Shown in pieces: positions 18,332 to 50,659 of a stretch of 64,000 nucleotides of DNA. Each line of letters opens with the position of its first letter. The stretch's first letter is position 1. The stretch is from assembly GCF_900100045.1 (NCBI RefSeq), contig NZ_FNEA01000013.1, positions 62,001-126,000 on the forward strand, written 5' to 3'. The position numbers were made by a program, and so were the translations under genes. This DNA comes from Paracoccus denitrificans (GTDB lineage: Bacteria > Pseudomonadota > Alphaproteobacteria > Rhodobacterales > Rhodobacteraceae). The notes under the pieces were generated by a model. The model saw nothing but the letters and a program-made list of their open reading frames with translations, had not been told where the DNA came from and did no database searches.

Positions 18332-18840
18332 CAAATGGCGGACCCAAAGGCGTATCGGCGTGATATCGATGAAGCCCAGGAAGCTCTCCGCAGTCTTGTC
18401 GTAACGGGTGGCAACGCGGCGGGCGTTCTTAAGCTTGTTGAAGCACCGTTCGACAAGGTTTCGAAGACGATACAAGGACCGGTCGACGGCAATGCGTTTT
18501 TTTCGTGATTTGCGCATGGGGATGACGGGCAAGACATCGCGTTTTCCCATGGATTTCCGAATGCTGTCAGCATCATAGCCTCGGTCGGCCAGCAGAACAC
18601 TTGGTGTCGGCAGATTGTCGGCCATGCCCAGATCGAAGCCGAGATAGTCGGAGGTTTGCCCCGCGGTGATCTCCGTCCTCATAGGCAGCCCTGCTGCGTT
18701 GACGAGGAGGTGGATCTTGGTCGTGAAGCCACCACGCGAACGGCCAAAACCCTGTCGCGGAGTCCCCCTTTAGCGCCCGCTGCCTGATGATGGGCGCGGA
18801 CCACGGTGCTATCGATCATTTGCAGTGCATGCGGGACCGC
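18316..18840 (-). mobile_element. IS5-family (IS427-like) insertion sequence, truncated
   Basis: The element runs from the break in the LysR gene to the break at the autotransporter sequence. Its 5' portion (transposase N-terminus and one terminal repeat) is missing, so a later deletion or recombination joined it to the autotransporter gene. Boundaries are good to about 5-10 bp on the left and a few bp on the right. It therefore interrupts or truncates two different genes at once. Confidence 0.75.
18323..18836 (-). pseudogene. IS5-family transposase, missing N-terminus
   Basis: Two overlapping minus-strand frames read VPHALQMIDSTVVRAHHQAAGAKGG, then GFGRSRGGFTTKIHLLVNA and MRTEITAGQTSDYLGFDL...LLADRGYDADSIR...RKKRIAVDRSLYRLRNLVERCFNKLKNARRVATRYDK. 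These carry the DDE residues expected of IS5 (D in MIDST, D in LLADRGYD, E in LVERCFNKLK). The frame change lies at an AAAGGGGG run. Such two-frame transposases are normal in the IS427 group, so the shift itself need not be damage; the missing N-terminus is. Confidence 0.8.
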
Positions 18841-20820
18841 GGCACGATTGAACTGGTCGGCATGGGCAGTATCGAAAACTCGTCGCGGGTGATCGTGGAT
18901 GGCGCGCTTGATCTTGAAAACAAGGGCAACGAAATCGCGTTCTGGGGGGTGTCGGATGCCTATAATGATGCGAAGATCCGCAATCTGGCCGGGTCGGGTT
19001 CGGTCTTTATCTATGATAGCGATCTAGTGCTGACTGCGGCACAGGACACGTTCAGCGGGACTATCAGTTCTGTCGACAGCGAGGGGAGGCACCTTAAAGG
19101 CGGCCTGACGGTTCAGGGCGGTGTGCAGACGCTGTCGGGTGCGAATGTCTATTTCGGCGCGACCAAGGTCGACGCCGGTGCTGGGCTGGTCCTGACCTCG
19201 ACAGGAAGCCTTGCAAGCGACGTGCTGGTTTCCGGTGGCTTCGTCAACGATGGCGATGTCGCGGGTGATACCATCGTGCAGGATGGCGGTATGACCGGCG
19301 GTTCCGGCAGCTATAGCGCGCTGACGGTCCTGGGCGGCGGCACGGTGGCCACCAATGGCAAGACGCCCCTGACGGTCGGAAGCGAATTTACCCAGAAGGC
19401 CGGCTCTACGCTTGTCTTCGCGCCGGTCGAGAACGGCATCCAGCCCGCTATCGCTGTCGGGGGGCGGGCCGTGATCGAAGACGGGGCAAGCATCACGCTG
19501 GACCGCGTTACGACCGGTCGGCTGGCGGTGGGGCGCGAATATGCGCTGGTTACCGCTGCGGGTGGCCTTGTCGGCAACTATGGCAGCCTGACCGGCGATC
19601 TGGTCACCGATGCGCCTTTCCTGTCCTTCGCGCTGGACAAGACTTCTTCCGGCGTCGCGCTGGGGGTTGAACGGTCCGATATCGTCTTTGCCGAGGTTGC
19701 GCACAGCGCCAACCAGATTGCCGTCGCCAACGAGCTGGAGGCGCTTGGCAGCGGCAATGAGTTGCATGACGAGGTTGCCTATATGACCGCTGCCGAGGCT
19801 TCGGATCTGCCTGCGGCCTTTGATTCGCTCTCGGGTGAAATCCATACCGCGATGCTGGGGGCAGTGGCCGAGGAAAGACACTTCCTGCGCGATGCGGTGA
19901 ACGGGCGCTTGCGGGCCGCCTTTGGCACGGTTGGCGCATACAAAGGGGGCGTGCAGGCCCTGACCGCATATGGGCCTGTCTCTGCCGAGGCGACCACCGA
20001 CGGCCCGGTCTATTGGGGCCACGCCTTCGGCGGCCGGGGTGAGGCCGATGGCGACGGCAATGCGGCACGTCGTGACAGCCGGACCAACGGTGTGGTTTTG
20101 GGCTATGACGCGCCGGTTCAAAACTGGCGTCTGGGTGGCGTTCTGGCGATGAGCGACAGCTCCTATGGGTTGGACGGCCGTGCCTCGTCGGGTTCGGGCC
20201 GGGGTATCCACCTCGGGGTCTATGCCGGCACGCAATGGGGGCAGACCGCGCTGCGCAGCGGGCTTGTCTATTCGACGCTTCGGCTGAAGGCGAACCGCAG
20301 CACCAGCCTTGGCACGATCAACGAAAGGCTGTCGTCCAAATATAACGGGCATGTCTGGCAGGCCTTTGCCGAGGTCGGCCACCGGCTCGACCATGGCACG
20401 ATGGCGCTGGAACCCTATGCCGGGCTTGCCCATGTCTGGATGCGCACCGACAGTTTCGCCGAAAACGGCGGTGAAACGGCGCTTGCCGGTGCGGAAGGCA
20501 AGATGGACACGACCTTCGCCACAATCGGGGTGCGCGCGGCCACGACCATCGAGGCGGCGACCCACAAACTGACCGTCAGTAGCGGCATCGGCTGGCGTCA
20601 CGCCTTTGGCGACGCGCGCCCGGAGCTGGCGATGGCCTTTGCAGGGGGCACGGGCTTCAACGTGGCGGCGGCGCCGATTGCCCGCAATGCGGCGGTGCTG
20701 GATATGGGGGTCGATATGGAACTTGGCCGCAATACCAATCTGAGGCTGGACTATCAGGGCCAGCTTGCCACGGATGCGCGCGAGCATCGGCTGGGCGCCA
20801 CTCTCGGCATGCAGTTCTGA
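18841..20820 (+). pseudogene. Autotransporter, 3' part with beta-barrel (AT1 of cluster A)
   Basis: About 660 residues align without gaps of note to the C-terminal two thirds of the intact autotransporter at 41.5-45.0 kb, for example ELVGMGSIENSSRVIVDGAL, AFWGVSDAYNDAKIRNL and YNGHVWQAFAEVGHRLDHG. It holds passenger repeats (to about residue 300) and a complete C-terminal barrel ending in a phenylalanine (GATLGMQF). The protease domain and signal peptide are gone, replaced by IS5 DNA. The open frame now starts inside the IS at 18787, so any product would lack an export signal. The three downstream genes of cluster A follow closely. Confidence 0.85.
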
Positions 20821-20849: not shown

Positions 20850-21365
20850 ATGGCATCTGGTTACATAACTATCAGAGGGGGGCTGTACTCCCTCCCTCTG
20901 GCCGCTTTGCTGGCCGGTCTGTCCGCCCTGCCGGTTTTTGCGACGGAAAAACACGCGCTGGGATTTGATGTCGCCATCAGCCTGTCGTCCAAAGCCGAAG
21001 CCGCGCTCAAGTCCACCCATGAGGGGATCTCGTTGTCGGCCACTTATTATGGCGAACCCCATCCCGGTGATGAGAAACACACCAACGCAATGGGGATGGT
21101 AGATCTGGGAGCCGAGGATATCAATCTTCCAGACGGTGCGCGGACGGTTCATGTGACCGGTAAAACGGTCAGCGCCGATCGACTGCGGCTGATCAGTGGC
21201 GGGCCGATGGTGAACGTCAATCTCTTTTCCTCGCGCAAAAGCCATGATGACAATATTTTGGCCTGCGATTTCATCGACGGTGCCGTTTCCAGCTTGAGGT
21301 CCGGGCCGGTGTATCTGCGTTGCGGCCTGATCACGGAAAACCCGGAAACCGAGGTCAAGCCATGA
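20850..21365 (+). CDS. Small secreted protein, CDFIDG family (cluster A copy)
   Basis: A 171-residue protein with a start ATG at 20850 (AAGGAG 8 bases upstream) and a signal peptide ending near LSALPVFATEK. The mature part aligns with the C-terminal half of the 46.9-47.8 kb protein: SSKAEAALKSTHEGISLSATYYGEP, then a DLGAEDINLP strand, NVNLFSSRKSHDDNILACDFIDG and a final LRCGLITE. Two conserved cysteines (in LACDFIDG and YLRCGL) probably form a disulfide in the periplasm or outside. I do not recognise a described domain. It stands between autotransporter AT1 and the micro-lipoprotein, so it is likely an accessory of the same surface system. Confidence 0.75.
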   Translation: MASGYITIRGGLYSLPLAALLAGLSALPVFATEKHALGFDVAISLSSKAEAALKSTHEGISLSATYYGEPHPGDEKHTNAMGMVDLGAEDINLPDGARTVHVTGKTVSADRLRLISGGPMVNVNLFSSRKSHDDNILACDFIDGAVSSLRSGPVYLRCGLITENPETEVKP

Positions 21366-21743: not shown

Positions 21744-23726
21744 ATGCCCGGGGCATATTTCACGCAACAATGGAACGGTGTGGGAATGGCACTAGGGGCG
21801 CTTATACGGAGCACCCGGACTGAAGGCTGCGTAATTCTTCGGGGCCGGTCGGTTCTGGTCTGCGCCGTATCCGGTCTGGCTCTGATGACCTTTTCCTTTT
21901 CAGCCGGCGCTGATCCGGTTCAGCCCATCGGGATTCCGCTGAAGCATGTGCCGTCGGATGACGACGCAACGGATTTCAATTCACTTGGCATAATGGTCGG
22001 AGTTAATGACGCGCATCCGCGGCTTTATCAGTTTGATACCGGCTCTGATTTGTTTGTCGGGCAGTTTGATGAGGCCATGTCCGATGTGCAGCCGCTGGCG
22101 GGGCACAAGCCCGATCTGTATGCCTATGGTGACGGCTCTTATGGCTATTGGATGCAGGAAATCCAGTTCGGAAGCATTGCCTACTATGATCCGGACGCGC
22201 CGGATAAACCCGTGGCGGTCATACCCGGCAAACATGTTGCCGGGCGTATCATCGACTGGGTCTACAGTCAGGGTAGCGACGGTTACAAAAATCACAAGGT
22301 ATCGGCCACGCCGATCGGGCACAGTGACGGGGTCGCGTATTACGCCGATATGGAGGTGCGTGACCGCATAATACATGATCAGCCAAGCGATCACCCACCA
22401 TTTTACGGCACATTCGGCGCGGGAAATTTTACAGACGACAAAACCTATATTTCGGCCCCCGCCAGTCAGACAAAAACTGGCTATGTCATAGCCGCCAATG
22501 CGAATATGGGGGATAGTAAGACGCCGGGTCGTGCGCCCTGTCTTTCCCTGCATCTCACCCCGCAGATACGTGCGCAATTCACGGCGCTGATGCCGTGGGG
22601 AAAGCTGGACTATGAATTTTCCATGCGGCAGTTCCCCGGTTCCGGCGCAAACGCTTCGAATGTGCATGACGGGAACTACCGCTATACAATATCTGTTCCG
22701 GTTGGGAAAAAGAAGCGGGCCATTGACTTCCGTGGGCCCATTCTCTTTGATACAGGAACACCTGAATTCATTTATGTTGATTCCGATGGGATGCTGGCGA
22801 AATTCCGGTCTAAAGGTTATCGACTTGAAAAATATGGCGATGATACCGTTGATATCAAGTTCTATGGCTTTGACGATAAGCTGAACGATCTGGAATATGA
22901 CGATGTTGATATCAGCCGGTTGTCCGATGAGGGCAGCGGGAATTCTCTGACCATCGGGTTGCCTTTTTTTCAGTCGAACTCGATGATGTTCGATCTGGAA
23001 AACCGCATAACCGCCTTTACGCCTTATTTCGTCACTGCCAGCGGTTTTTCAACTGACGCCGGTGTGAATATTCCACATCTCGGTGTTGTCAACGGGGATG
23101 TCGGCAGCGTTGGATGGGTTGGCCTGGCCGGCAATCTGTCCGGGCAGGGTGATTTCACGATCGAAAAAGATTCGAATGTGCGCATGACCGCCATCAACAC
23201 CTATACCGGAGCAACACGCATTGCCAAAGATGGTTATCTGCATCTGGCCGGGCTTGGCAGTATCGAGAAATCTGCGCATGTTTTCAACGAAGGAAATTTA
23301 TTTATCGACCAGAAGGGCGCTTACATGACGCAATGGGGTGTGGATAAATCCTTCGGTGACGCCGTTATTCGCGATATTTCGGGTGGTGGTGACATTGTTC
23401 TTGGCTCCAGGCGCCTGGTCGTGACGGCAGCAACAGGGACGATAGGCGGTTCGATTACCGACTATGATGACAATGGCAAAAATCTCGGCGGCGGGCTGGT
23501 GCTTGCCGGAGGTAAACTGACCATTGCGGGCGACAATGATTATTCCGGCCTGACGGAAGTGGCCAGCGGCGCCGAAATGCACGTCACCGGCCAGCTTGCC
23601 GGCGATGTCTCGGTCCACGGGAAGTTGAGCGTGGACGGGCAGGTGTCCGGCACGGTGACGGTCCACGAAGGGGGCGAGCTTTCCGGGAATGGCGCGATCA
23701 GCGCTGTCCACCGGGTAAGCCGCTGA
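21744..23726 (+). pseudogene. Pepsin-like aspartic protease autotransporter, 3'-truncated (AT2 of cluster A)
   Basis: A 660-residue frame starting at the ATG at 21744 (AAAGGAGA 6 bases upstream), with an extended signal region ending near FSFSAGAD. Residues about 65-450 look like a complete two-lobed family A1 aspartic peptidase: first catalytic motif FDTGSDLF (D98), flap-like AYGDGSYGY (128-135), second catalytic motif FDTGTPEF (D336) and the C-terminal FFQSNSMMFDLENRITAFTPYF element. Passenger repeats follow (TYTGATRIAKDGYLHLAGLGSIE). The gene ends abruptly after SGNGAIS, where unrelated DNA begins near 23.71 kb. The translocator barrel is therefore missing and the product could be secreted to the periplasm but not surface-displayed. 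It is a different paralogue from AT1, not its other half, since both contain the GLGSIE/GMGSIE repeat region. Confidence 0.8.
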
Positions 23727-34137: not shown

Positions 34138-34650
34138 TGCAAATCGGGAGCGGTAAGAAGGGCTCTACCGGTCCGGCATCACCAGCCGGGCAGCCACTGG
34201 GGTATCCCGCGCGAAGAGCGTTCCTCGCGCTGGACCATGGCCGATATCTGCTGTCTCGCCATGACCGGCAAGAAGCCTGACCCGACCGAGGCGCTTTATG
34301 TTCAGATCCTGATCGGCCTGCTGATCTCAAACGGGCCAGGGTCGATCACGGCGCAGGGTGCCAAGGGCGCGGTTTCGGCGGATGGGCCGCAGACGCCGGA
34401 CCGGGTCCAGATCAACAAGGCCATGGTCGGTTTTCTGACCCATTCCGGCTACAGCCACGGCGGCAACGGATTCGAGGGCATGGCCTTCCTGCTGGATCAG
34501 TTCCGCGACAAGGGGCTGAAGGATCCGACCGATCCGAACCACGGGCTGGACCTGACCGCGATGGCACGCGACTTCGCCTTGGCCTACAAGCGCGACAAGG
34601 CGACGGCCAAGGAGCTGGGGACCGAGGTTCGCGCCTTGCCGGGGGTGTGA
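34137..34650 (+). pseudogene. Citrate-synthase-like enzyme, collapsed by internal deletion
   Basis: The C-terminal frame (from about 34190) reads EERSSRWTMADICCLAMTGKKPDP, LISNGPGSITAQGAKGAVSADG, FLTHSGYSHGGNGFEGMAFLLDQF and ends LGTEVRALPGV. This is the C-terminal half of the short citrate-synthase-like family that accompanies tricarboxylate transporters. At 34137 another frame reads MQIGSGKKGSTG, which looks like the true N-terminus of that family. The middle (over 100 codons) is deleted, and the 3' end is cut at about 34650, where phage tail DNA starts. The active-site region is lost, so it is inactive. Confidence 0.72.
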
Positions 34651-37637
34651 ACCGCGACGATCAGGACCGCCCGGTCTATGGCGGTACACCCTCCGACTTC
34701 GCCGTGGTGCAGGCGATCCAGGAGATGAAGGCGCGCAGGCTGCGGGTAACCTTCTATCCCTTCATCCTGATGGACGTTCCGCCCGGCAACACCCTGCCGA
34801 ACCCCTATTCCGACAACGCCGCCGAGACCGGCCAACCTGCCTTCCCGTGGCGGGGCCGGATCACCTGTTCTCCGGCTGCGGGGTTCGCGGGGAGCGTCGA
34901 CAAGACCCCGACGGCGGCGACGCAGGTCGCGGCGCTATTCGGCGGGGCTACACCCGCGAACTTCTCCGTATCTGGCGAAACCGTCAACTGGACCGGCCCT
35001 GCCGGTGACTGGGGCCTGCGCCGGATGATCCTGCACTATGCCCATCTCTGTGCGGCCGCCGGGGGCGTCGATGCCTTCCTGATCGGCTCGGAGATGCGCG
35101 GGCTGACCACCATCCGCTCGGGCGCCAGCAGCTACCCCGCCGTGCAGGCCTTCCGTGATCTGGCGGCAGCCGTGCGCGCCATCCTCGGGCCGGGCACGAA
35201 GATCAGCTACGCGGCCGACTGGTCGGAGTATTTCGGGCACCAGCCAGGCGATGGCAGCGGCGACATGTTCTTCCATCTCGATCCGCTCTGGGCCGATCCC
35301 GAGATCGATTTCGTCGGCATCGACAACTACATGCCACTGTCCGACTGGCGCGACGGGTTCGAGCATGCCGACGCCGCCGATGGCTGGCCTGCCATCTACG
35401 ACCGGGCCTACCTTCAGGCGCACATCGCCGGCGGCGAAGGGTTCGACTGGTTCTACTCCTCGGCCGCCGACCGCACCGCGCAGGTCCGCACCCCGATTAC
35501 CGACGGCGCCCACGACAAGCCATGGGTCTTCCGATACAAGGATCTGCTCGCCTGGTGGTCTAACCCGCATTACAACCGCCCGGGTGGGGTCGAGAGCGGC
35601 ACGCCGACGGCATGGGTGCCGCAGTCGAAGCCGATCTGGTTCACCGAGCTCGGCTGCCCGGCCATCGACCGCGGCACCAACCAGCCGAATGTCTTTTTTG
35701 ATCCGAAGTCGTCAGAGAGCTTCACGCCGTACTTCTCGCGCGGCTGGCGCGACGACGCCATCCAGCGCGCCTATCTGGAGGCGACGTATCTCTGGTGGGG
35801 TCAGGGCGCGAACAACCCGCTGTCTACCGTCTACGGAGGCCGGATGGTGCATGTCCCCGAATGCGCCGCCTGGACCTGGGACGCGCGGCCCTATCCCTTC
35901 TTCCCGGCACTGACCGGCGTCTGGACCGATGGTCCGAACTGGCGGCTCGGCCATTGGCTCACCGGGCGGCTGGGCGCGGTCTCGCTCGCGGCCCTCGTCC
36001 GGCACCTGTGCCTGCGCGTCGGGTTGCCCGAAAGCCGCATCGACGTCACCGGCCTGTGGGGCGCGGTCGAGGGCTTTGTCATCGGGGCGCTGGAAAGCCC
36101 GCGTGCCTCGATCACCACGCTTGCACGGCATTTCGGCTTCGATGCCGTCGAGACCGAGGACGTGATCCGCTTTGTCATGCGCGGCCGGGCCTCCATCGCG
36201 ACCGTCGCGCCCGACGATCTTGTCGCCACACGCGAGGGCGACGTGCTGGAACTGACGCGCGGCCAGGAGACCGAGCTGCCGCAGGCGCTGAAATGGCAGC
36301 TGGCCCGTGCCGACGAGGATTACGACGCCGCCCTCGTCGAGGCGCGGCGCATCACGGTGGACACGACCCGGATCGCCTCGGAATCCTTCCCGATGGCGGT
36401 GCCGCCCGAGGAGGCCGAGCGCCGCTGCCGCCGCGCACTGATGGAGGCGTGGGTGGGGCGCGAGACGGCGGCGTTCCGCCTGCCGCCCTCGCGGCTTGCG
36501 CTCGATCCCGCCGACGTCATCCGGCTCGCCCATGACGGGCGGGAGATCGAGTTCCGTCTCGTCTCCGTCGCGGATGCCGAAGCCCGCGGTATCGAGGCGG
36601 TCCGCCAGGACCGGGCGACCTACGACCTGCCGCCCGGCGATCCCCGCGCGGCGTCGCTGACGCGCGCTGTCGTGTTCGGGGCGCCGGATGCGGTGCTGAT
36701 GGACCTGCCGCAGCTGACCGAGGACCAGCCCGCGCATCGGCCGCTGGTCGGCGCGCACGCCGTGCCCTGGCCGGGCGAGATGGCGGTGTTCCGCAGTCCT
36801 TCGACGGACGGGTTCGAACTGCTGACCAGCTTCGGCGCGCGAGCCCGCCTCGGCGCGCTGGTCTCGGACTTCTACGCGGGGCCGACGTCGCGCTTCGACC
36901 TCGGCAACGCTCTGGTCATCGATCTGCTGACCGGCACGCTGGAGAGCGTCACCGACCTGACCTTGTTCGGCGGTGCGAACGCGCTCGCCGTCGAGAGCGC
37001 ACCCGGCGCTTGGGAGATCGTGCAGGCGGGCGTGGCCGAACTGCTGGCGCCCGGTCGCTACCGCCTGACCCGGCTCCTGCGCGGCCAGCGCGGCACCGAG
37101 GGTGCGATGGGCAACCCGACCCCGGCCGGTGCCCGCATGGCGGTGCTGGACGCCTCGTTGAAACCGCTGCCCATCGCCGAGGCCGATCTCGGCATCCCCT
37201 GGAACTGGCGCATCGGCCCGGCGAGCCGCCCGGTCAGCGACGAGACCTATGTGGCGCAGAGCTTCACGCCGGTGGGCATGGGGCTGCGGCCGTTCTCGGT
37301 CGCCCATGTCGAGCAGCCATGGCGCACGCCGCGCACACCGGCCGACCTCACAATCCGCTGGACGCGGCGGTCCCGCGTGCTCTCGGCCGACAACTGGGGC
37401 GCGGTCGAAGTGCCGCTCGCCGAGGAAGTTGAAGCTTACCAGGTCGAGATCCTCGACGGCGCCGCCGTGAAGCGGGTGCTCGGCACGGGCACCACCAACG
37501 CGCTCTACACCGCCGCCCAGCAGACCGCCGATTGGGGCGCACCGCTCGGCCCCGGCAACACCCTCACCATTCGCATCTTCCAGCTCTCCGCCCTCGTCGG
37601 GCGGGGCGCGGCGCAGATCGTCACCCTCACCTTCTGA
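34647..37637 (+). CDS. GTA/phage baseplate-hub protein with TIM-barrel-like domain, N-terminally truncated
   Basis: A 996-residue frame that begins directly inside a conserved domain (DDQDRPVYGGTPSDFAVVQAIQEMKA), so about 250-300 N-terminal residues of a normal gene transfer agent orfg15-type protein are missing. Residues about 1-380 are the GTA TIM-barrel-like domain (FYPFILMDVPPGNTLPNPYS, YAADWSEYFGHQPGDGSGDMFFHLDPLWADPEIDFVGIDNY). The rest is the tail-hub part (MVHVPECAAWTWDARPYPFFPALTGVWTD, RYRLTRLLRGQRGTEGA). The nominal GTG start overlaps the citrate-synthase-like relic, marking a recombination joint. It is followed by a DUF2793 gene, but no other head or tail genes are present. It is a fragment of a GTA-like prophage and probably non-functional. 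Confidence 0.8.
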   Translation: MNRDDQDRPVYGGTPSDFAVVQAIQEMKARRLRVTFYPFILMDVPPGNTLPNPYSDNAAETGQPAFPWRGRITCSPAAGFAGSVDKTPTAATQVAALFGGATPANFSVSGETVNWTGPAGDWGLRRMILHYAHLCAAAGGVDAFLIGSEMRGLTTIRSGASSYPAVQAFRDLAAAVRAILGPGTKISYAADWSEYFGHQPGDGSGDMFFHLDPLWADPEIDFVGIDNYMPLSDWRDGFEHADAADGWPAIYDRAYLQAHIAGGEGFDWFYSSAADRTAQVRTPITDGAHDKPWVFRYKDLLAWWSNPHYNRPGGVESGTPTAWVPQSKPIWFTELGCPAIDRGTNQPNVFFDPKSSESFTPYFSRGWRDDAIQRAYLEATYLWWGQGANNPLSTVYGGRMVHVPECAAWTWDARPYPFFPALTGVWTDGPNWRLGHWLTGRLGAVSLAALVRHLCLRVGLPESRIDVTGLWGAVEGFVIGALESPRASITTLARHFGFDAVETEDVIRFVMRGRASIATVAPDDLVATREGDVLELTRGQETELPQALKWQLARADEDYDAALVEARRITVDTTRIASESFPMAVPPEEAERRCRRALMEAWVGRETAAFRLPPSRLALDPADVIRLAHDGREIEFRLVSVADAEARGIEAVRQDRATYDLPPGDPRAASLTRAVVFGAPDAVLMDLPQLTEDQPAHRPLVGAHAVPWPGEMAVFRSPSTDGFELLTSFGARARLGALVSDFYAGPTSRFDLGNALVIDLLTGTLESVTDLTLFGGANALAVESAPGAWEIVQAGVAELLAPGRYRLTRLLRGQRGTEGAMGNPTPAGARMAVLDASLKPLPIAEADLGIPWNWRIGPASRPVSDETYVAQSFTPVGMGLRPFSVAHVEQPWRTPRTPADLTIRWTRRSRVLSADNWGAVEVPLAEEVEAYQVEILDGAAVKRVLGTGTTNALYTAAQQTADWGAPLGPGNTLTIRIFQLSALVGRGAAQIVTLTF

Positions 37638-39103: not shown

Positions 39104-39165
39104 GATCCTATCCTCCCGAAATGAGCCGCAGCCGGGGCAAGGGCTCATTTCGGGAGGATAGGATC
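39104..39165 (+). promoter_or_regulatory. 24-bp perfect stem sequestering the tnpA ribosome site
   Basis: Arms at 39104-39127 and 39142-39165 are exact reverse complements around a 14-base loop. The right arm contains GGGAGG and ends at the base before the tnpA ATG, so the hairpin hides the ribosome-binding site. In IS200 a similar 5' structure is known to keep transposase low and block read-through from outside. Confidence 0.85.
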
Positions 39166-39582
39166 ATGCACTATGACACCGGCAAGCACTGCGTTTTCTA
39201 TCATCGCTATCACATCGTCTGGTCGACGAAGTATCGCTACAAGGTGCGGATCGGGCCGCTGCGGCTCAGGGTGCGCGACATCTGCCGCCAGGTGTGCCGC
39301 GAGAACGGGGTCGACATCTTGCGCGGGGTGCTGTCGAGCGACCACGTCCACATGTTCGTGTCGGTGCCGCCCAGGCTCGCCATCTCGGATCTGGTGCGCA
39401 AGATGAAGGGCCGTTCGTCTTATCGGGTGCAGCGGGAATTTCCGCAGATCCGCAAGCGCTACTGGGGCTGCCGGTTCTGGGGTAGGGGCTATTTTTCAAC
39501 CACCAACGGCGCCATCACCGAAGACATCGTACTTCAGTACCTCGAAAATCACATCGCTGATCCTACCGGCGCCAGCCGGTAG
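39166..39582 (+). CDS. tnpA: IS200 transposase TnpA (HUH Y1 type)
   Basis: A 138-residue Y1 transposase: the HUH metal site is in SDHVHMFVSVPP, and the catalytic tyrosine is in EDIVLQYLENHI near the C-terminus. The N-terminus HCVFYHRYHIVWSTKYRYKV is typical. The start ATG at 39166 follows the hairpin directly. It cuts and joins single-stranded ends as a dimer. All key residues are present, so it may be active. Confidence 0.9.
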   Translation: MHYDTGKHCVFYHRYHIVWSTKYRYKVRIGPLRLRVRDICRQVCRENGVDILRGVLSSDHVHMFVSVPPRLAISDLVRKMKGRSSYRVQREFPQIRKRYWGCRFWGRGYFSTTNGAITEDIVLQYLENHIADPTGASR

Positions 39583-40350: not shown

Positions 40351-41019
40351 TTATTCGTCCGGATCGTCGACCAGGCAACCCATGCCATGACAGCCTTGAT
40401 AGTTGCCGTCCTCATCAAAGTTTGGCTCTCCCTGCGCATCAAATTGCGGCCTGGGGTCGATTTCATCGTCCGCGTCCGGATTGTCGACATAACAACCGAT
40501 CCCGTGACAGCCGCTGTAATCATTGACCTGGTAATAGTTGTTGGTGGTCGTGTGGGCGTGACCTCGGTGGTTGTGCTCATCGCTGGTCATGCTGCCGACA
40601 AGAGCGCCGATAACGGCGGCGCCGACGACAGCACCGACGTCATGGCCGTGATCGTCATAAGCACGAGCATTTGCATCGTGACCACCACCACGGCCATGAT
40701 GATAGCCGGCGACATCGGCAAAGACGCCGGCGCAGCCTTGGGCAACCCAGATGTATTGGCTTTTTGGATTGTAACCCCAAGTCTTGTTCAGAATGCACGA
40801 AGCGTTCGATATTTGATGGATGAGTTGCGGCTTCTTCAGCGGTCCAGCCCAGCATTCATCATATTTATGATTCCTCGAATGACACTCTACCGTGGCCTCG
40901 GCCATCACTGGAGCGGCTGCGGCGATGTTTATCCCCGCCCCCAACAGCGCAAAAATGGCGTAGCGGGCAATCAGATCGCGCCGCACAAGAGAAGCTGATT
41001 TTTTCCGTAGCATTTCCAT
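40351..41019 (-). CDS. DUF3011 secreted protein carrying two GCHGxGCxVDNPD motifs
   Basis: A 222-residue protein starting at the ATG at 41019 (AAGGA 4 bases upstream). A signal segment with an N-region RRDLIARYAIFALLG is cleaved near VMAEA. Residues about 43-105 are DUF3011 (TVECHSRNHKYDECWAG, NASCILNKTWGYNPK, YIWVAQGCAGVF). A His-rich part (about 108-160) includes a glycine-zipper-like hydrophobic stretch (VGAVVGAAVIGALVGS). The tail has the motif twice, at about 170-182 (GCHGIGCYVDNPD) and 209-221 (GCHGMGCLVDDPD). The same motif defines the micro-lipoprotein encoded just upstream. It is the last gene on this strand in cluster B. Possible metal binding by the His/Cys motifs is an inference. 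Confidence 0.78.
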   Translation of the reverse strand: MEMLRKKSASLVRRDLIARYAIFALLGAGINIAAAAPVMAEATVECHSRNHKYDECWAGPLKKPQLIHQISNASCILNKTWGYNPKSQYIWVAQGCAGVFADVAGYHHGRGGGHDANARAYDDHGHDVGAVVGAAVIGALVGSMTSDEHNHRGHAHTTTNNYYQVNDYSGCHGIGCYVDNPDADDEIDPRPQFDAQGEPNFDEDGNYQGCHGMGCLVDDPDE

Positions 41020-41484: not shown

Positions 41485-44400
41485 CTAGAAACGCATACTG
41501 AAGGTGGCGCCAAGGCGGTGCTCGCGCGCGTCCGAGGCAAGCTGGCCCTGATAGTCCAGTCGCATGATTGCCTTCTTTCCAAGGTTCATGTCGACGCCCA
41601 GGTCCAGCACAGCCGCGTTGCGGGCAATTGCCGCGCCGGCGATGTCGAAGTTTGCGCCCCCGGCAAAGGCCATTGCCAGTTCCGGGTCAACGTCACCGAA
41701 GGCATGGCGCCAGCCGATTCCGCCGCTGACCGCGAGGTCATGCTCAGCAGATCTGATCGTCGTAGCCGCGCGCAACCCGATCATGGTGAAGGTCGTGTTC
41801 ATCACCCCTTCTGCACCCCCAAGCGCCATGCTGCCGCCACGTTCGGCGAAGCTGTCTGTGCGCAACCGGACATGGGCCAGCCCGGCATAGGGCTCCAGTG
41901 CCATGTTGCCGTGATCGACACGGTGGCCGACCTCCGCAAACGCTTGCCAGACATGCCCATTATATTTCGACGAGAGCGGCGCGGCCATTTCACCGATGGC
42001 GGCGTGGCGATCTGTCTTCAAGCGGTAATCCGAATAGGTCAACCCGGCACGCAGGGCAGTCTGCCCCCATTCCGTGCCGGCATAGGCCCCGAGATGGATC
42101 CCGTTTCCTGATCCTGAGGAAACTCGATCATCCACGTCATACGAGCTGTCGCTCATCGCCAGCACGCCGCCCAGCCGCCAATCCTCGACTGGCGCATCAT
42201 AGCCAAGGACAAGGCCGTGGGTTCTGCGGTCAAGCTGCGCAGCATTGCCATCGCCATCTGTCCGACCCCGGGCGCCAAAGGCATGGCCCCAATAGACCGG
42301 CCCATCAATCGTGGCGACGGCATCGACCGCCCCGTCGGCGGTCAAGGCCATTACGCCACTCTTCGAGGCGCCGACCGTCCCGAATGCTGCGCGCAGACGT
42401 CCGTTTACCGCATCGCGCAGAAAGTGGCTTTCGTCGATCAACGCCCCCTGCATTGATGCATGGATCTCGCCCGAGACCGAGTCGAAGGCGCTCGCCGCCT
42501 CAGAGGCACCTAGATAAAGTGCCTCATCATAAAGCGGGTTGCCGCTGCCCAGTGACTCCAGCCCGAAAGCCGAAGAAGCCTGGTTCGCGCTTTGTGCCAC
42601 ATCGGCGAAGGCGATATCCGAACGCCTCACCTCCAGCACAACATTGGCAGGAGAATTGTTCAGCGCAAAGCTGAGGAACGGTGCATCCGTCACCAGATCC
42701 CCCGCCAGCATGTTATAACCACCAGAGACGCCGCCAGTTGCGTCCAGCAACAGATACTCGCGTCCCAGCGACAGTCGCCCAGCCGTGGCGCGGTCAAGTG
42801 TTACGCTTGCGCCATTTTCGATCAACGCCTGATCCGAGACAGCGATACCGGGTTGGGCACCCCCAGCCACCGGACCGAATACGAGGGTCGAGCCTGCCTG
42901 CTGGGTAAAGCTTCCTTCAACCTTCAACGGTACCGCGCCGCCTGTGGCTACCGCGCCGCCATCGGCTACCGTCAAGCCGTGGAAGGTGCCCGTGCCGCCT
43001 GCCGTGCCGCCATTCTGCACGGTCGTATGATCATTCACGGTGCCGTCATTGGCAAAACCGCCGGAAACAAGAACCTTACTGGCAAGCGACCCTTTCGAGG
43101 TCAGGACCAATCCTGCACCGGTATTGATCCTGGTCGCACCGGTATACTGATTGTTGCCGGCCAGCGTCTGCACGCCACCCTGAACGATCAGGCCGCCGCC
43201 GTGATGCGTGTTTTCCGCGTCAAGGTCGGTGATCGTCCCTCTGAAACTGTCCTGCGCCGCCGTCAGCACCAGATTGCGGTCGTAAAGCAGCACCGTGCCA
43301 GAGCCGGACAGGCTGCGAATCCGCGCATCATTATACGCATCTGACACCCCCCAGAATGCGATGCGATTACCCTTGTCGCCGATGTCCAGCGTGCCATCCG
43401 CCACCACCCGCGACGAGGTTTCGATGCTGCCGATGCCGGCCAGTTCGAGCTTGCCATCCGTCTCAATCACGGTCTGACCGGTATAGGTGTTGGCATTGGA
43501 AAGCCGCAACTGGGCGTGTTTTGCCACCGTCAGATCGCCAGCGCCCGAGATCACCCCGGCCGCGCCGAAATAGCCAACGGTGTATTCGGTCCCGTCATCA
43601 TCCTTCATGGGAAACGGGCTGCCCATCTCTGCCGTTACCCGCGACAGCCCGATTTCGTCCACAGCAGGGGTATCCGTGGTGAAATTGTTGGCGCTGACAA
43701 AATATGGCGTATAGGCGGTGGACTGGTTTTCCAGGTCATACATGACCGACTGGCTCACAAAGAAGTCCATACCAGCTATGAACTGCACCGGCGTGTCTGC
43801 GTTCCCCTCGATCTCGACGACATCAATGTTGGAAAGACCGACCGGCATACCCTCCCCCGCCACAAGATTCAGCGAAGGGATCGTCTTGTTGCCATCCTTG
43901 TCGATGTCGACCCTGACCCCGGACGCGACAAGGGCATTCAGACGCGCCGTGCTGATGGTGATCTGCCCACCGCCTGGTGTTCCGGTGTCCAGCAACGTGG
44001 CAACCTTGGTGAGGCTGGGGGCGGCATCATCGTCACCGAATGCCAGGGTGTAATTCCCCTCGAACTCGGCAGAGGCAGGTGCGCCAGATCCGGGGAAGTT
44101 AGGCAAGGTACCCTTGGCGTCGTCGCCATTCTTGTCGCCCCAGGGCATGACCGAGGTGAACTGTGCACGAACCGCAGAATTCACATCCACGATCAGGCAG
44201 GGGGAACAACCCGGTGTAAGACCCTGCTTGCCCGACTCGGTATTGCCGTTGGCGGCAATGACATAGCCCGTCTTCGTCGCCCGCCCGATCAGCCCCGATG
44301 TGCTTGCCCATTCGCGGCCCAGGTAGTCGCCGGCACCGAAGGTTCCCCAAAGGGTTCCGCCATCGTCAATGGGCTTGTCCTGTGCCATCTGCTTGCGGGC

Positions 44401-44979
44401 ATTGAGGTCGGCATAATAGGCTGTCTTCGACCCATCCTCGTTGGTAACGACATAGACAGGATCCGCGCTCAGCATCGGCTTTTCCGGCCCCGTGTAATCG
44501 GCCGTGTAAATGACATCGACGATCCGCGCCACCTGATAGGTGGATTGCCCCGCAACCGGCAGGGTAAAGCTCTCGGAGCCGTCTGCTGCATGATAGGCGA
44601 TGTCATCTACATCGACCTGCTGCAACAGGTAGCCATAGGTGCCGTCACCATAGAAATAGCCTCGGGGCTCAGTGCCCGGTGTCGGTTTCACCCCGCTGAC
44701 ATCGGAACCGAGCTGCATATTGGCGCTATCCGAACCGGTGTCGAACAGCATCTGCCGTCGCTGACCATCATTTGTGGAAACCCAGATGGTGATGCGACTG
44801 AGCTCGTCATTCCCCTTGTCGTCCTTAACATACAGGTAATCAAGTGGGACTGACCTTGGATCGGATAAGGCCGGAGATGATGCCAGGCCCAGCCCGACAA
44901 GCAGAGCCAGCCCAGCCGTCGACCCGCCAAGCCGTCTGAGCAGGAACTTGCGATTCCCAATCGTATTGCACGTCACCAT
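41485..44979 (-). CDS. Autotransporter with N-terminal pepsin-like (A1) aspartic protease domain (AT3, intact)
   Basis: An 1164-residue protein. The start ATG at 44979 follows AAGGAAAG; an upstream in-frame extension has no signal-peptide logic. The signal region (KFLLRRLGGSTAGLALLVGLGLASSPALSD) ends near residue 39. Residues about 45-430 look like a two-lobed family A1 peptidase: FDTGSDSA with D80, flap FYGDGTYGY (109-117), LLDTGTPGG with D331, and closing FFVSQSVMYDLENQSTAYTPYF (407-428). Residues about 480-880 are beta-helix passenger with autotransporter repeats (ANTYTGQTVIETDGKLELAG, NNQYTGATRINTGAGLVL). Residues about 890-1164 are the translocator barrel, ending in F (GATFSMRF). It would be displayed on or released from the cell surface. 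I know no described autotransporter of this domain order; activity is inferred from motifs only. Confidence 0.85.
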   Translation of the reverse strand: MVTCNTIGNRKFLLRRLGGSTAGLALLVGLGLASSPALSDPRSVPLDYLYVKDDKGNDELSRITIWVSTNDGQRRQMLFDTGSDSANMQLGSDVSGVKPTPGTEPRGYFYGDGTYGYLLQQVDVDDIAYHAADGSESFTLPVAGQSTYQVARIVDVIYTADYTGPEKPMLSADPVYVVTNEDGSKTAYYADLNARKQMAQDKPIDDGGTLWGTFGAGDYLGREWASTSGLIGRATKTGYVIAANGNTESGKQGLTPGCSPCLIVDVNSAVRAQFTSVMPWGDKNGDDAKGTLPNFPGSGAPASAEFEGNYTLAFGDDDAAPSLTKVATLLDTGTPGGGQITISTARLNALVASGVRVDIDKDGNKTIPSLNLVAGEGMPVGLSNIDVVEIEGNADTPVQFIAGMDFFVSQSVMYDLENQSTAYTPYFVSANNFTTDTPAVDEIGLSRVTAEMGSPFPMKDDDGTEYTVGYFGAAGVISGAGDLTVAKHAQLRLSNANTYTGQTVIETDGKLELAGIGSIETSSRVVADGTLDIGDKGNRIAFWGVSDAYNDARIRSLSGSGTVLLYDRNLVLTAAQDSFRGTITDLDAENTHHGGGLIVQGGVQTLAGNNQYTGATRINTGAGLVLTSKGSLASKVLVSGGFANDGTVNDHTTVQNGGTAGGTGTFHGLTVADGGAVATGGAVPLKVEGSFTQQAGSTLVFGPVAGGAQPGIAVSDQALIENGASVTLDRATAGRLSLGREYLLLDATGGVSGGYNMLAGDLVTDAPFLSFALNNSPANVVLEVRRSDIAFADVAQSANQASSAFGLESLGSGNPLYDEALYLGASEAASAFDSVSGEIHASMQGALIDESHFLRDAVNGRLRAAFGTVGASKSGVMALTADGAVDAVATIDGPVYWGHAFGARGRTDGDGNAAQLDRRTHGLVLGYDAPVEDWRLGGVLAMSDSSYDVDDRVSSGSGNGIHLGAYAGTEWGQTALRAGLTYSDYRLKTDRHAAIGEMAAPLSSKYNGHVWQAFAEVGHRVDHGNMALEPYAGLAHVRLRTDSFAERGGSMALGGAEGVMNTTFTMIGLRAATTIRSAEHDLAVSGGIGWRHAFGDVDPELAMAFAGGANFDIAGAAIARNAAVLDLGVDMNLGKKAIMRLDYQGQLASDAREHRLGATFSMRF

Positions 44980-45308
44980 GTCGCGTCTTTCCTTATGCGA
45001 AATCACCCGGCGCGGATGCCGCGACGCGCCCCGAAGTCGCACCCCGGTTTTCCACCGGTGTTCAACATCGTCTTCGCCAGCAGCCGCACAGCCAGGATCC
45101 GGTCATACCAGCAAGACAATACATATTCCTGGCGGTCGTCATCCCGCTATGACTATCATGATTCGCACATTTTATAACGGAACGCACATATTCGGCGGCT
45201 GTGCAGGTGCTCGAGGTTGCGGCTCGATGCTGTGGGATAATATGCCCGGACAAAGGCAGAGTGGGGGGCTATCGGCCTGTTTCTGTATACTAACTATTTG
45301 GAGAATAA
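44980..45308. promoter_or_regulatory. Divergent promoter region of cluster B
   Basis: These 329 bp separate the minus-strand autotransporter from the plus-strand barrel gene and hold no gene. Moderately AT-rich patches occur near 45107-45190 (GACAATACATATTCC, TTTTATAACGGAACGCACATATT) and 45285-45308. Two promoters pointing outward are expected; I do not claim exact elements. Confidence 0.4.
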
Positions 45309-45959: not shown

Positions 45960-46328
45960 ATGAAGCTCAAAATGCTATCCGCTATTGGCGTCGCTTGCAC
46001 CCTTGCGGCATGTGCCGAGAACCCTGACAATATTCGTGCGGGCTATACTTCGGCTGCAACCTATCAGAACATGTCCTGCCAGCAACTGGCATCCGAGGCT
46101 ATCACTGTCTCGAATCGCGCGCATGATGCGGCGAATGTCCAGCGCCGCCATCAAACCCGCGACGAAGTTGCTATGGCGGCGGGGCTGGTGGTGTTCTGGC
46201 CGGCACTTCTGTTCGTTCACGGGAATGACCAGACCACATCGGAGGTTGCACAACTGCGTGGTCAGATGCAGGCGATCGAGCAGGTTTCGGCCGCCAAGAA
46301 TTGCGGAATGGTCTTCCAGCGGACATAA
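45960..46328 (+). CDS. Small lipoprotein of unknown function
   Basis: A 122-residue protein with a lipobox (TLAACAEN, cysteine near residue 18). The mature part has a conserved-looking MSCQQLASEAITVSNRAHDAANVQRRHQTRDEVAMAAGLVVFWPALLFVHGNDQTT, a hydrophobic segment in the middle, and a C-terminal QLRGQMQAIEQVSAAKNCG helix. Two extra cysteines (in MSCQQL and KNCGM) may pair. This type of lipoprotein is common in Rhodobacteraceae but has no known role. It starts 39 bp after the barrel gene. Confidence 0.78.
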   Translation: MKLKMLSAIGVACTLAACAENPDNIRAGYTSAATYQNMSCQQLASEAITVSNRAHDAANVQRRHQTRDEVAMAAGLVVFWPALLFVHGNDQTTSEVAQLRGQMQAIEQVSAAKNCGMVFQRT

Positions 46329-46926: not shown

Positions 46927-46945
46927 CAGCTTGGGAGTGTATACA

Positions 46946-47806
46946 GTGAGAATGACGGCCTGTTTCACAAGCATCGTGATAGTCCTTGCCGCAACCGCCG
47001 CACCTGCCCTGGCTGAGGGGGTTGATCCCTGCGCGGGTATCGACACCAATCTGACCGATAAGCGCGCCAGAGAATATGCCCACCTGATCGTCGACGCCTT
47101 TTCCAAGGATCTGAAGCCATCCGAGCGTTTCAAACCCTCAGATGTCGAGGTTGAATCGTTCCTGGGAAGCGGTCACTGGAGCGCTGTGAACGCATCCATT
47201 CCCACTGCTGATATGGGAATGTTCTTTTTCCAAGAGGTTGGTGGCAAGAAGCAGTTCAAGGATGTGTGGGGCGGCATTGCCGAAGCTTCCGAAGTCCCAC
47301 AAGTCATAAAATGGGCCGAAGATCTGGGGGCGCCACATAATCTTGCGACCTGCTTCGCCGACCAGGTCAGCTTCGACGATAGTGCAGATTCTCCATTCGG
47401 TTTCACGGTCGATCTGATCTTCTCGACCAAGGCAGAGGAACGTCTGACCGCGCTGCATGAGGAGGTTGTCGTATCAGCCTCCTACTATGGCGATCCTTCT
47501 GAAAAAGGTAAGGAATTCTCTGATGATGTCGGGCGATTTGACCTTGGCACGGAGACCGTGCAGGTGCCGGCTTCGCCGGGAATCGCTAAGATCAGCGGCA
47601 ATCAGGTTGGCGAAAGTGACCTCGAATGGATAGAGGGCCGACCTAATGTCAATGTCAATGTTTTCACTGCTCGCATCAGCGGCGACGACAATCTCATAAG
47701 TTGCGATTTCATTGACGGCCCACTTGACGATGTCATTCAGTCCATGCCCGTCGCGCTGCACTGCACGCTGATCGAAGAGGAGGTCGATGCCGAGCTGAAG
47801 CCATGA
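46946..47806 (+). CDS. Secreted protein, CDFIDG family, with extra N-terminal domain (cluster B copy)
   Basis: A 286-residue protein. I choose the GTG at 46946 because GGGAG stands 9 bases upstream; an ATG follows at 46952. The signal peptide ends PALAEG. Residues about 20-150 are an unassigned domain (DPCAGIDTNLTDKRAREYAHLIVDAF, FLGSGHWSAVNASIPTADMGMFFF). Residues about 155-286 align with the cluster A protein at 20850-21365 (STKAEERLTALHEEVVVSASYYGDP, FDLGTETVQVP, NVNVFTARISGDDNLISCDFIDG, ALHCTLIEEE). The conserved cysteine pair is kept. Linkage of this family to the autotransporter clusters in both places suggests a common system. Confidence 0.75.
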   Translation: MRMTACFTSIVIVLAATAAPALAEGVDPCAGIDTNLTDKRAREYAHLIVDAFSKDLKPSERFKPSDVEVESFLGSGHWSAVNASIPTADMGMFFFQEVGGKKQFKDVWGGIAEASEVPQVIKWAEDLGAPHNLATCFADQVSFDDSADSPFGFTVDLIFSTKAEERLTALHEEVVVSASYYGDPSEKGKEFSDDVGRFDLGTETVQVPASPGIAKISGNQVGESDLEWIEGRPNVNVNVFTARISGDDNLISCDFIDGPLDDVIQSMPVALHCTLIEEEVDAELKP

Positions 47807-48020
47807 CATGCGCGCTTTGGGAAATCCCCCGGTTTCTCTGGCCACGACTTCTCATCGCAACCAATCGCACGCGTATCAGAATGGAACTGCCACCAACAGA
47901 TCACCACCAAATCTGAGTTATGGTTGTCGGCGGCTGCTTGCAGGTCCTTCGATACCCGGAACTGCTCACAGCGACCCCGGCGACCACGATGGATCTCATG
48001 ACCTCGAGGAGGATAGCCGG

Positions 48021-49103
48021 TTGACGCGTATATTGATGCCTGTCGTCATGTCACTGCTTCTGGCATTACTTGCGGCGCGCAGCGACGCGCAGGATGCGCC
48101 GCCGGAAGAATTGGTGGTCGGAGTCTATGTCAGCCCACCTTTCGTCGAGGAACACGACGATGGCAACTATTCCGGCATGGCAATCGATCTCTGGGAAACT
48201 GTTGCCGACCGGATGGATCTGGCTTTTCGCTATGCCACTTATCCAACCTTCGGCTCACTGGTCCGTGCCACGGCCAGTGGCGAGGTGGATGCGGCCGTTA
48301 CCAATCTGACCATTACCCGTGAACGTGCCGAGCTCATCGCATTCACCCAGCCGTGGTATGATGCCGGGTTAAGGATCATGGTGCCCAGTCAGGGGGGGGG
48401 CGGGTTTCGAGGCATGCTGAACGGGCTTCAGAATGCCGGCCACCTCCGCGCCTACATATTTCTACTGTCAATGATCCTGATCGCTACTGTTGGCCTGTCA
48501 CTTTTTGATCGGCGATTTGATCCGGATCATCCCAGACGATGGCGTGAATCCATCGCGGAAAGTTTCTATCAGGTGATGTTGATTATCACCTCGGGACGAA
48601 CTGCGCGCAAGAACCTGTTCGGCTGGGTCGGGCGCATCTGGCAGGCTCTCTGGCTTATCGTCGGCGTCGCGGTCATCGCCTATATTACTTCTTCGGTGAC
48701 GAGCGTCATGACCACCGTGTCACTGACCCAAGGCATCTCCGCGCTGTCGGACCTGCCCGGCAACACGGTTGGTGTCCTTTCCGGCAGCGTTGCTGAGCAA
48801 TATATGCGTGATATGGGTATCGCCACGCGTTCATACGTCAATATCGATGCTTCGGTTGTCGCACTGCGCGAGGGGCGACTGGACGCGGTGGTGGGAGACG
48901 CGCCCATCCTTGAACATTATGTCCTTACACATCAGAAGGATAACCTGGCGGTTGTCGGCAACTTGTTTCATCCGGACAAATACGGCTTTGCCTTCCCGCA
49001 TGAAAGCAACCTGACGACACCGACTACACTGGAGCTTCTGGACCTTCAGGAAGACGGTACGTTAGGGAACCTGAGGTTGGAGTACTTCGGCAGCAGAAAT
49101 TGA
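48021..49103 (+). CDS. GluR0-like ligand-gated ion channel (substrate-binding domain split by a pore)
   Basis: A 360-residue protein; the TTG at 48021 has GAGGAGG 8 bases upstream and begins a signal peptide ending ARSDAQDA. Residues about 30-128 are the first lobe of a bac_3 binding domain (LVVGVYVSPPFVEE, YSGMAIDLWETVADRM, EVDAAVTNLTITRERAELIAFTQPW). Residues 143-162 are M1, 176-193 a re-entrant pore segment (ESIAESFYQVMLIITSG), and 203-226 M2 (VGRIWQALWLIVGVAVIAYITSSV). The second lobe follows (LPGNTVGVLSGSVAEQYM, VALREGRLDAVVGDAP, KYGFAFP). This S1-M1-P-M2-S2 order defines prokaryotic glutamate-receptor channels. The pore lacks the TVGYG potassium filter of GluR0, so selectivity is unknown. 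Confidence 0.83.
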   Translation: MTRILMPVVMSLLLALLAARSDAQDAPPEELVVGVYVSPPFVEEHDDGNYSGMAIDLWETVADRMDLAFRYATYPTFGSLVRATASGEVDAAVTNLTITRERAELIAFTQPWYDAGLRIMVPSQGGGGFRGMLNGLQNAGHLRAYIFLLSMILIATVGLSLFDRRFDPDHPRRWRESIAESFYQVMLIITSGRTARKNLFGWVGRIWQALWLIVGVAVIAYITSSVTSVMTTVSLTQGISALSDLPGNTVGVLSGSVAEQYMRDMGIATRSYVNIDASVVALREGRLDAVVGDAPILEHYVLTHQKDNLAVVGNLFHPDKYGFAFPHESNLTTPTTLELLDLQEDGTLGNLRLEYFGSRN

Positions 49104-49765: not shown

Positions 49766-50659
49766 TTATCGCTTCCGCCTCAACTCTCCCGGTGTTGTGC
49801 CGAAAAATTTCTTCATGACAACCATCATGTGAGACTGGCTAGAGAAGCCATGCGCGTTCGCTATCTGCGAGATGTGCGAATCTGTATTGGCAATAGATGA
49901 CATTGCACGCTCGGCCCTCAGTTTCATAACGTATTGATGCGGGGACACACCCATCTCCACGCCGAAACTACGCGAAAAATGCCCGCAAGACATACCGGAT
50001 ATGTCGGAAAGTTCACTGATCGTTATCCTGCGATGGATGTTTTCGTGTATATGCTCGACAACCCTGCGCCGAATATGTGATGCCAGTCCGCCTCGCTTCG
50101 GGTTGTGATCCACTCGGTTGTCGGCATTGGTCATTCGTCTGATGAGGTGGGAAAGCAATGCCATGCTGAGGGACTCCAGGTAAAGATGATTATCCCCGTC
50201 ATTGATGATTCCATTCCTTAGCAACATGGCTATTTTGTGTGCAATTGGATCCACATCTCCAACCTTGAACAATGGGGGATCTGATAATTCAAGATCGTAT
50301 TCCCTGATGCTCAGGTTGTTCAATTTCTCAGGCGTGACAGAAAGAAGTATGTTCTCTTTCGGCTCCGACCATTCTGCTGTGTAGTTTTCTCCGGCTGGCA
50401 CCAATTCCACCGTGCCCGGAGATGCGGAATATTCCTGACGGCGAGATGAGCTCAGCATGGTTTTCCTCCGTGCCTGCGGCGTCAGGAGGACGAGGATGAA
50501 ATTCGAGCTGGCGGCAAACTCTATCTTGCCTTCCCTTGTTTGTGTTAGCATTAGGTCAACGTATGGGCTATAATATTTCCGACCCCATTGCGGGGGAAAA
50601 ATATCAATCGCTCGGGGAGGCAAGCAATCTGATGAGTTTTGCCGGCTCTCAATCTTCAT
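49766..50659 (-). CDS. AraC-family transcriptional regulator
   Basis: A 297-residue regulator. The N-terminal part (about 1-190) is an unassigned sensory domain with a cupin-like segment (SASPGTVELVPAGENYTAEW). The C-terminal 100 residues hold two helix-turn-helix units: RRITISELSDISGMSCGHFSRSFGVEMGVSPHQYV and SHISQIANAHGFSSQSHMMVVMKKFFGTTPGELRR. Its DNA is lower in GC than the flanking genes, a sign of acquisition. Target genes are unknown; the cluster B surface genes or the membrane protein are nearest. Confidence 0.87.
   Translation of the reverse strand: MKIESRQNSSDCLPPRAIDIFPPQWGRKYYSPYVDLMLTQTREGKIEFAASSNFILVLLTPQARRKTMLSSSRRQEYSASPGTVELVPAGENYTAEWSEPKENILLSVTPEKLNNLSIREYDLELSDPPLFKVGDVDPIAHKIAMLLRNGIINDGDNHLYLESLSMALLSHLIRRMTNADNRVDHNPKRGGLASHIRRRVVEHIHENIHRRITISELSDISGMSCGHFSRSFGVEMGVSPHQYVMKLRAERAMSSIANTDSHISQIANAHGFSSQSHMMVVMKKFFGTTPGELRRKR

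Follow-up and report, generated by a model that had tools for sequence, protein, structure and literature searches.

The window, that is, the whole stretch of 64,000 nucleotides of Paracoccus denitrificans DNA that was analyzed, contains on its minus strand a gene (P0001; 41485..44979) that encodes a protein of 1164 amino acids with the layout of an autotransporter and an N-terminal pepsin-like domain. The open reading frame begins with an ATG at 44979 and its stop codon ends at 41485; a GTG at 45042, upstream of this ATG, is likewise in frame. The protein is divided into four parts, all encoded on the minus strand: a putative Sec-type signal peptide (residues 1-40; 44860..44979), the pepsin-like domain of approximately 390 amino acids (residues 41-430; 43690..44859), a β-helix/PATR-type repeat region recognized by Pfam and NCBIfam models (residues about 431-815; 42535..43689) and an autotransporter β-barrel recognized by Pfam as PF03797 (residues 897-1144; 41548..42291). 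The signal peptide was assigned by eye on the basis of a charged start, a hydrophobic core and a cleavage site at about ALS and DP, and the corresponding site in the P. siganidrum orthologue, also located by eye, lies between ALA and DP.

The barrel scored 208.1 bits against the Pfam cut-off of 26 and is a complete type Va barrel, with the passenger preceding it and an aromatic residue, F, at the very end of the chain. The C-terminal barrel ending in F that had been proposed in the sequence-only reading was thus confirmed. The β-helix repeats proposed there were also found, as the NCBIfam model TIGR02601 scored 20.2 bits, narrowly above its cut-off of 19.85, while the Pfam PATR model scored 23.4 bits and remained under its cut-off of 27. 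Additionally, the NCBIfam EprS model matched residues 607-1164, which comprise repeats and barrel and not the head. Comparison of P0001 with its P. siganidrum counterpart revealed dN/dS values of 0.21 for the head, 0.24 for the repeats and 0.20 for the barrel. The values for head and barrel indicate purifying selection and therefore a maintained gene, in which the head is constrained about equally with the barrel.

The pepsin-like domain contains, in the order found in family A1 proteases, a DTGS motif with the first aspartate (D80; codon 44742-44740), a flap-like YGDGTYG segment with Y110 (codon 44652-44650), a second Asp motif with D331 (codon 43989-43987) and the closing block GMDFFVSQSVMYDLENQSTAYTPYF; all of these landmarks, which had been pointed out before, were verified in the sequence. 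The spacing is 30 residues from Asp80 to Tyr110 and 251 from Asp80 to Asp331. We also observed a psi-loop-like motif in each lobe (GTFGAG and IAGMDFF) and a CSPC motif.

An alignment of 24 family rows (A3) was used to assess the conservation of these features. One row, L032, was mis-cut, which left 23 usable rows; it was included in the comparison of the A3 profile with the PDB, in the whole-domain A1 comparison, in the Pfam check of the rows and in one of the viral-contig scans, was left out of the lobe-wise hhalign comparison and its shuffles, and was counted apart in the motif tally. All 23 usable rows contained DTGS, the flap Tyr, D[TS]GT and the closing motif with Gly and FF followed by DL, as well as the two psi-loop motifs, GxFG(A/S) and GxxFF, one per lobe. 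The hydrophobic pair preceding the psi-loop Gly was looser than that of pepsin, with T or A in several rows. A CxxC ahead of the C-lobe motif was present in 22/23 usable rows, and the first Cys was replaced by Arg in a paralogue within the window (P0002).

The motifs were then counted in 38 family genes, several of which are near-copies of one another: P0001, P0002, L003, L007, 24 of the 25 gene places from the family of G694 and 10 of the 19 from a Mesorhizobium-like genus. A short match in the family of G694 (G1150:C17) and nine long copies from the Mesorhizobium-like genus were left out; eight of the latter showed the score pattern of the L022 type, including L023, whose protein is identical to that of L022. 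Two copies from G346 also lay outside this set and were used for the identity and dN/dS comparisons. The N-lobe was present in 37/38 genes, and both DTGS and the second Asp were kept in 37/37, giving two Asp motifs per chain. The second motif was D[TS]GT in 34 genes, DTGA in one (L097), DTGS in one (L100) and DAGT in one (L087); the last of these genes has an internal stop and a Leu in place of the flap Tyr. Identity to P0001 drops to 21% among the relatives, yet the landmarks persist, and their occurrence in P0001 is for this reason above what chance would give.

The kinship of the head with known proteases is remote. Residues 41-430 matched no Pfam or NCBIfam family, and a PDB search with the single P0001 sequence likewise returned no protease. 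The Pfam aspartic-protease models, PF00026 included, matched 0/24 rows of A3. PF00026 found no match in the genome of P0001 and none in the control genomes either, and scored over its cut-off in 7/398 Pseudomonadota genomes. Some plant A1 homologues are pepsin-fold binding or scaffold domains devoid of protease activity, and the lack of a PF00026 match would fit such a role here, as would an activity that is proposed from sequence. However, the first motif and the second Asp are each kept in 37/37 genes and the flap Tyr in 23/23 usable rows, despite the low identities, and we therefore consider an inactive scaffold unlikely.

In contrast to the Pfam models, a search of 177,635 distinct PDB sequences with the A3 profile recovered five matches at E≤10, and all of them were A1 proteases aligned in register: plasmepsin V (twice), candidapepsin-5 and plasmepsin IV (twice). 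Their E values ranged from 0.089 to 0.99, so that none was significant singly. As a chymosin N-lobe query found 165 of the 177,635 PDB sequences at E≤0.001, five A1 proteases out of five would be very unlikely by chance, although these matches are not independent of each other. Lobe-wise hhalign comparisons were performed with three bacterial A1 proteins and printed fragments of chymosin, plasmepsin II and candidapepsin as targets. For the N-lobe (P 2.9e-4) the DTGS motifs were aligned and the match stopped at the flap, and for the C-lobe (P 1.5e-5) the match covered 28 columns, that is, the closing psi-loop block only. The controls were weaker, with P values of 0.19 and 0.073 for reversed profiles and of 0.081 and 0.02 for swapped lobes, and when the columns of the A1 lobes were shuffled, 0/200 shuffles reached the real score for either lobe. 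When the whole domain was compared, untrimmed, with five A1 proteins from bacteria, the match was weak, with a P value of 0.05 and 27 columns aligned at the closing motif.

These results also bear on whether the DTG motifs are coincidental and the head adopts some other β-rich fold. Such a fold would be consistent with the absence of a significant match to any single known family and with the low confidence of both AlphaFold2 models of the head (pLDDT 33.7 and 27.9), which were built from three-row alignments only. The register of both lobes with the A1 lobes, above 200/200 shuffles, and the exclusive recovery of A1 proteases from the PDB argue against coincidence, which we regard as very improbable. 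The sequence-only reading had named a lack of A1 similarity in profile searches as the outcome that would count against it; this outcome was obtained with PF00026, but not in the A3-PDB search, the lobe-wise hhalign comparison and the shuffles. Its proposal of an autotransporter with a family A1 protease holds for the type Va architecture and, judging from the profiles and conserved motifs, for the pepsin-like character, and the label "family A1" is better avoided. We conclude from these alignments that the head represents a remote pepsin-like family and is not a PF00026 member.

Two paralogues were found on the plus strand of the window. P0002 (21744..23726; 660 amino acids) contains a signal peptide, assigned by eye, a pepsin-like domain 37% identical to that of P0001, and repeats, and has no barrel. 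P0003 (18787..20820; 677 amino acids) is a fragment that consists of repeats and barrel, with the pepsin-like domain absent, and shares 69% identity with P0001 over the part that starts at residue 509. These two paralogues, together with the conserved neighborhood described below, go beyond the content of the earlier reading.

A barrel match was present in 29/38 family genes; among these 29, L007 has no N-lobe, and L087 and L099 are interrupted between head and barrel. Five of the nine genes without a barrel match reach the end of their contig (L082, L090, L093, L096 and L097), and the other four, P0002, L021, L098 and L100, are truly barrel-less. In a tree of 32 rows, from which L100 was left out as too short, the three barrel-less members included clustered together, the support being moderate (85/81), and P0001 grouped with the L022 type with support of 100/99. 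The barrel-less genes are informative about the possibility that the head has a pepsin-like fold and active site whose main job is to process its own passenger, releasing itself from the surface, rather than to act on other proteins. Some protease autotransporters do free their own passenger, by intramolecular cleavage according to a SPATE review, and the conservation of the catalytic residues across the family genes would be expected in that case as well. However, the catalytic motifs are also retained in P0002, L021, L098 and L100, which have no barrel to be released from, and self-release as the main function appears improbable to us.

P0001 belongs to a family that occurs in several alphaproteobacteria and is unnamed in Pfam and NCBIfam, and the distribution of this pepsin-like autotransporter family is patchy. 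A copy with 100% identity over all 1164 residues is present in P. denitrificans HAMBI_2443 (L008). A 412-residue head query, whose counterpart in P. siganidrum is 94% identical, was found in 3/125 genomes of the genus and in 1/295 genomes of the family sample, the one being its own genome. A three-row profile found the family in 2/385 genomes of the class and 4/398 of the phylum, own genome counted. A more sensitive nine-row profile revealed it in 11/75 genomes of a third family (that of G694) and in 18/119 genomes of the Mesorhizobium-like genus of G902. This genus is probably Mesorhizobium, as Mesorhizobium plasmids were the best matches to the flanks of L022. Additionally, a Phyllobacterium plasmid carries a form of the family without the N-lobe. 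Four scans of viral contigs and a phage search found no relatives.

The neighborhood of P0001 is partly conserved. On the minus strand, a DUF3011 protein (40351..41019) lies on one side of the gene and has a 62% identical relative in L024 and partial matches in L098 and L100. On the other side lie, on the plus strand, a small putative lipoprotein of 122 amino acids, assigned by eye (45960..46328), with a relative in L024; an LprI-family protein (PF07007; 46507..46926), LprI being found also at L098 and L100; a protein of 291 amino acids, judged by eye to be secreted (46931..47806), the two halves of which correspond to different sites in L024, L098 and L100; and a GluR0-like ligand-gated channel (47808..49103) with a relative in L024, in which SBP_bac_3 scored above its cut-off and Lig_chan scored 26.2 bits, under its cut-off of 30.8. 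An AraC-type regulator follows on the minus strand (49766..50659) and has relatives of about 30% identity in L024. A half copy of the gene for the 291-residue protein was also found between P0003 and P0002.

The window and the P. siganidrum locus (L003) have their flanking genes in common, from an outer-membrane protein through AraC, and L024, L098 and L100, all from the Mesorhizobium-like genus, contain parts of the neighbor set. At L007, L018-L022, L077-L097, L099 and L101-L104, where many flanks span only a few kb, the neighbor genes of P0001 had no match at E≤1e-5. In L098 and in the N-terminal piece of L100, the LprI domain (PF07007) precedes the pepsin-like domain in a fused protein. Since LprI adjoins the gene in Paracoccus and is fused in these relatives, the gene arrangements suggest a functional link between LprI and the pepsin-like domain. 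A broader proposal, which we put forward tentatively and think rather doubtful as a whole, is that an undescribed family of exported aspartic proteases reaches the surface by type V secretion, with a barrel-less branch that acts joined to or alongside a lysozyme-inhibitor domain of the LprI type, and that the partly conserved locus (DUF3011, LprI, the secreted 291-residue protein, the lipoprotein, the GluR0-like channel and AraC) might protect or feed cells in surroundings that are acidic and rich in lysozyme, for example guts, symbiosomes or the vacuoles of predators.

We compared P0001 with known systems. It shares with the bacterial pepsin homologues of family A1 (shewasin A, shewasin D and their relatives) two Asp motifs per chain, a flap Tyr, psi-loop motifs and the lack of a propeptide. 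For the two shewasins from S. amazonensis and S. denitrificans, Table 2 of PMC2761423 lists an Asp-Tyr spacing of 32 and Asp-Asp spacings of 245 and 250. The agreement of P0001 with these values is weak evidence, since the Asp-Asp spacing of the bacterial homologues in the same table ranges from 190 to 358. In contrast to these homologues, the P0001 family is predicted to be exported, contains repeats and mostly a barrel, and is unmatched by PF00026; a signal peptide was predicted in 0/7 bacterial A1 proteins of PMC2761423, and shewasin D is reported as mainly cytoplasmic in PMC4814920.

The layout of P0001 also resembles that of the SPATE (S6) and subtilase (S8) autotransporters, in which an N-terminal protease head is followed by a β-helix and a C-terminal barrel; these are, however, serine proteases and differ from the P0001 head in fold and chemistry. 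Serine proteases were likewise the protease autotransporters among the literature matches listed, and no pepsin-like autotransporter, nor any aspartic protease borne on an autotransporter, occurred among the titles and abstract openings of these matches, subscription papers and protein databases being outside the scope of the search; prior notice of the family in MEROPS or UniProt is possible. A retropepsin-like bacterial aspartic protease, Rickettsia APRc, has reportedly been linked in print to autotransporters (PMC4140852). APRc has been proposed to act on autotransporters and, unlike P0001, is not an autotransporter itself; its role is disputed in PMC10414592. The Rickettsia peptidase RapL was considered and rejected, being described as a putative serine protease. 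Mesorhizobium DCA1 and plant APN1 bring an autotransporter and an aspartic peptidase together in one story, and this possible link was checked in reviews and set aside. The peptidase belongs to the plant, and DCA1 contains 43 glycine-rich repeats (PMC9037385).

Taken together, we consider it likely that P0001 is a type Va autotransporter and that the domain at the N-terminal end of its passenger is a bilobal aspartic protease of the pepsin-like kind, with only a distant relationship to family A1; a surface-displayed, probably active enzyme is the best reading of the gene. Sec would carry the chain across the inner membrane, the barrel would insert into the outer membrane, and the passenger would be threaded outward unfolded; the closely spaced cysteines of the CxxC should be no obstacle to this threading. 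The repeats would then fold into a β-helix stalk, and the head would fold outside the cell, bringing its two aspartates together in a single cleft. The presumed end of the signal peptide lies only about 40 residues before the first Asp (D80; the counterpart of Asp32 in pepsin). This interval is too short to hold a propeptide of the pepsin type, and folding only after export could keep the protease inactive within the cell. The barrel-less paralogue would be periplasmic or exit by another route.

The enzyme would be likely to cut proteins in the vicinity of the cell surface, perhaps with a preference for acidic conditions. The residue after the second DTG in P0001 is Thr, as in acid pepsins, whereas in 6/7 bacterial homologues it is Ala according to the text of PMC2761423, or Asp according to its abstract. 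This Thr weakly hints at acid activity; little can be built on it, since shewasin D also shows activity at acid pH (PMC4814920). If the favored reading is true, the family would add a catalytic class, the aspartic one, to type V secretion and represent an exported bacterial pepsin-like enzyme without a propeptide, in contrast to the homologues in PMC2761423 and PMC4814920, which have no signal peptide and of which the one localized is found mainly in the cytoplasm. The very divergent sequences of this family would also be useful for the question of how the bilobal pepsins originated.

The pepsin-like family was found to include a branch without the barrel, which was present in Paracoccus and in a Mesorhizobium-like genus. 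Members of this branch were P0002, a paralogue of the autotransporter P0001 (window 21744-23726, + strand), and the proteins encoded at L021 7187-9181, L098 6819-9173 and L100 5348-6658. No barrel remnant was detected by tblastn downstream of the barrel-less gene in the window (P0002) or in L021. In L098 and L100, an LprI domain (lysozyme-inhibitor family) was located N-terminal to the pepsin-like domain in a single fusion (L098 6819-9170; L100 4305-5450). We also observed another LprI-like stretch immediately 3' of this fusion at both loci. At L074, from a separate Pseudomonadota genome, an open frame of 3894 aa gave a weak PF00026 match; the 1031 aa examined began like a lipoprotein and contained the motifs DTGS and DSGA.

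The protease locus was adjoined by a GluR0-like ionotropic glutamate receptor gene (window 47808-49103, + strand; SBP_bac_3 split by a weak Lig_chan match), which also occurred in the second genus (L024). The putative secreted protein of 46931-47806, identified by eye, matched no Pfam family at E<=0.01, and its two halves matched separate sites in L024, L098 and L100; a half copy of its gene lay at 20958-21362, between P0003 and P0002. Next to the locus lay a putative phage- or GTA-tail-like ORF (34647-37637), assigned by sequence reading rather than family search, and an IS200-type transposase (39121-39582; PF01797 match).

P0003 (window 18787-20820, + strand), a headless autotransporter copy, was 69% identical to P0001, and inspection by eye revealed no recognisable signal peptide. 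P0003 is perhaps the remnant of an autotransporter gene, despite its 99.85% identity to a counterpart in genome G346.
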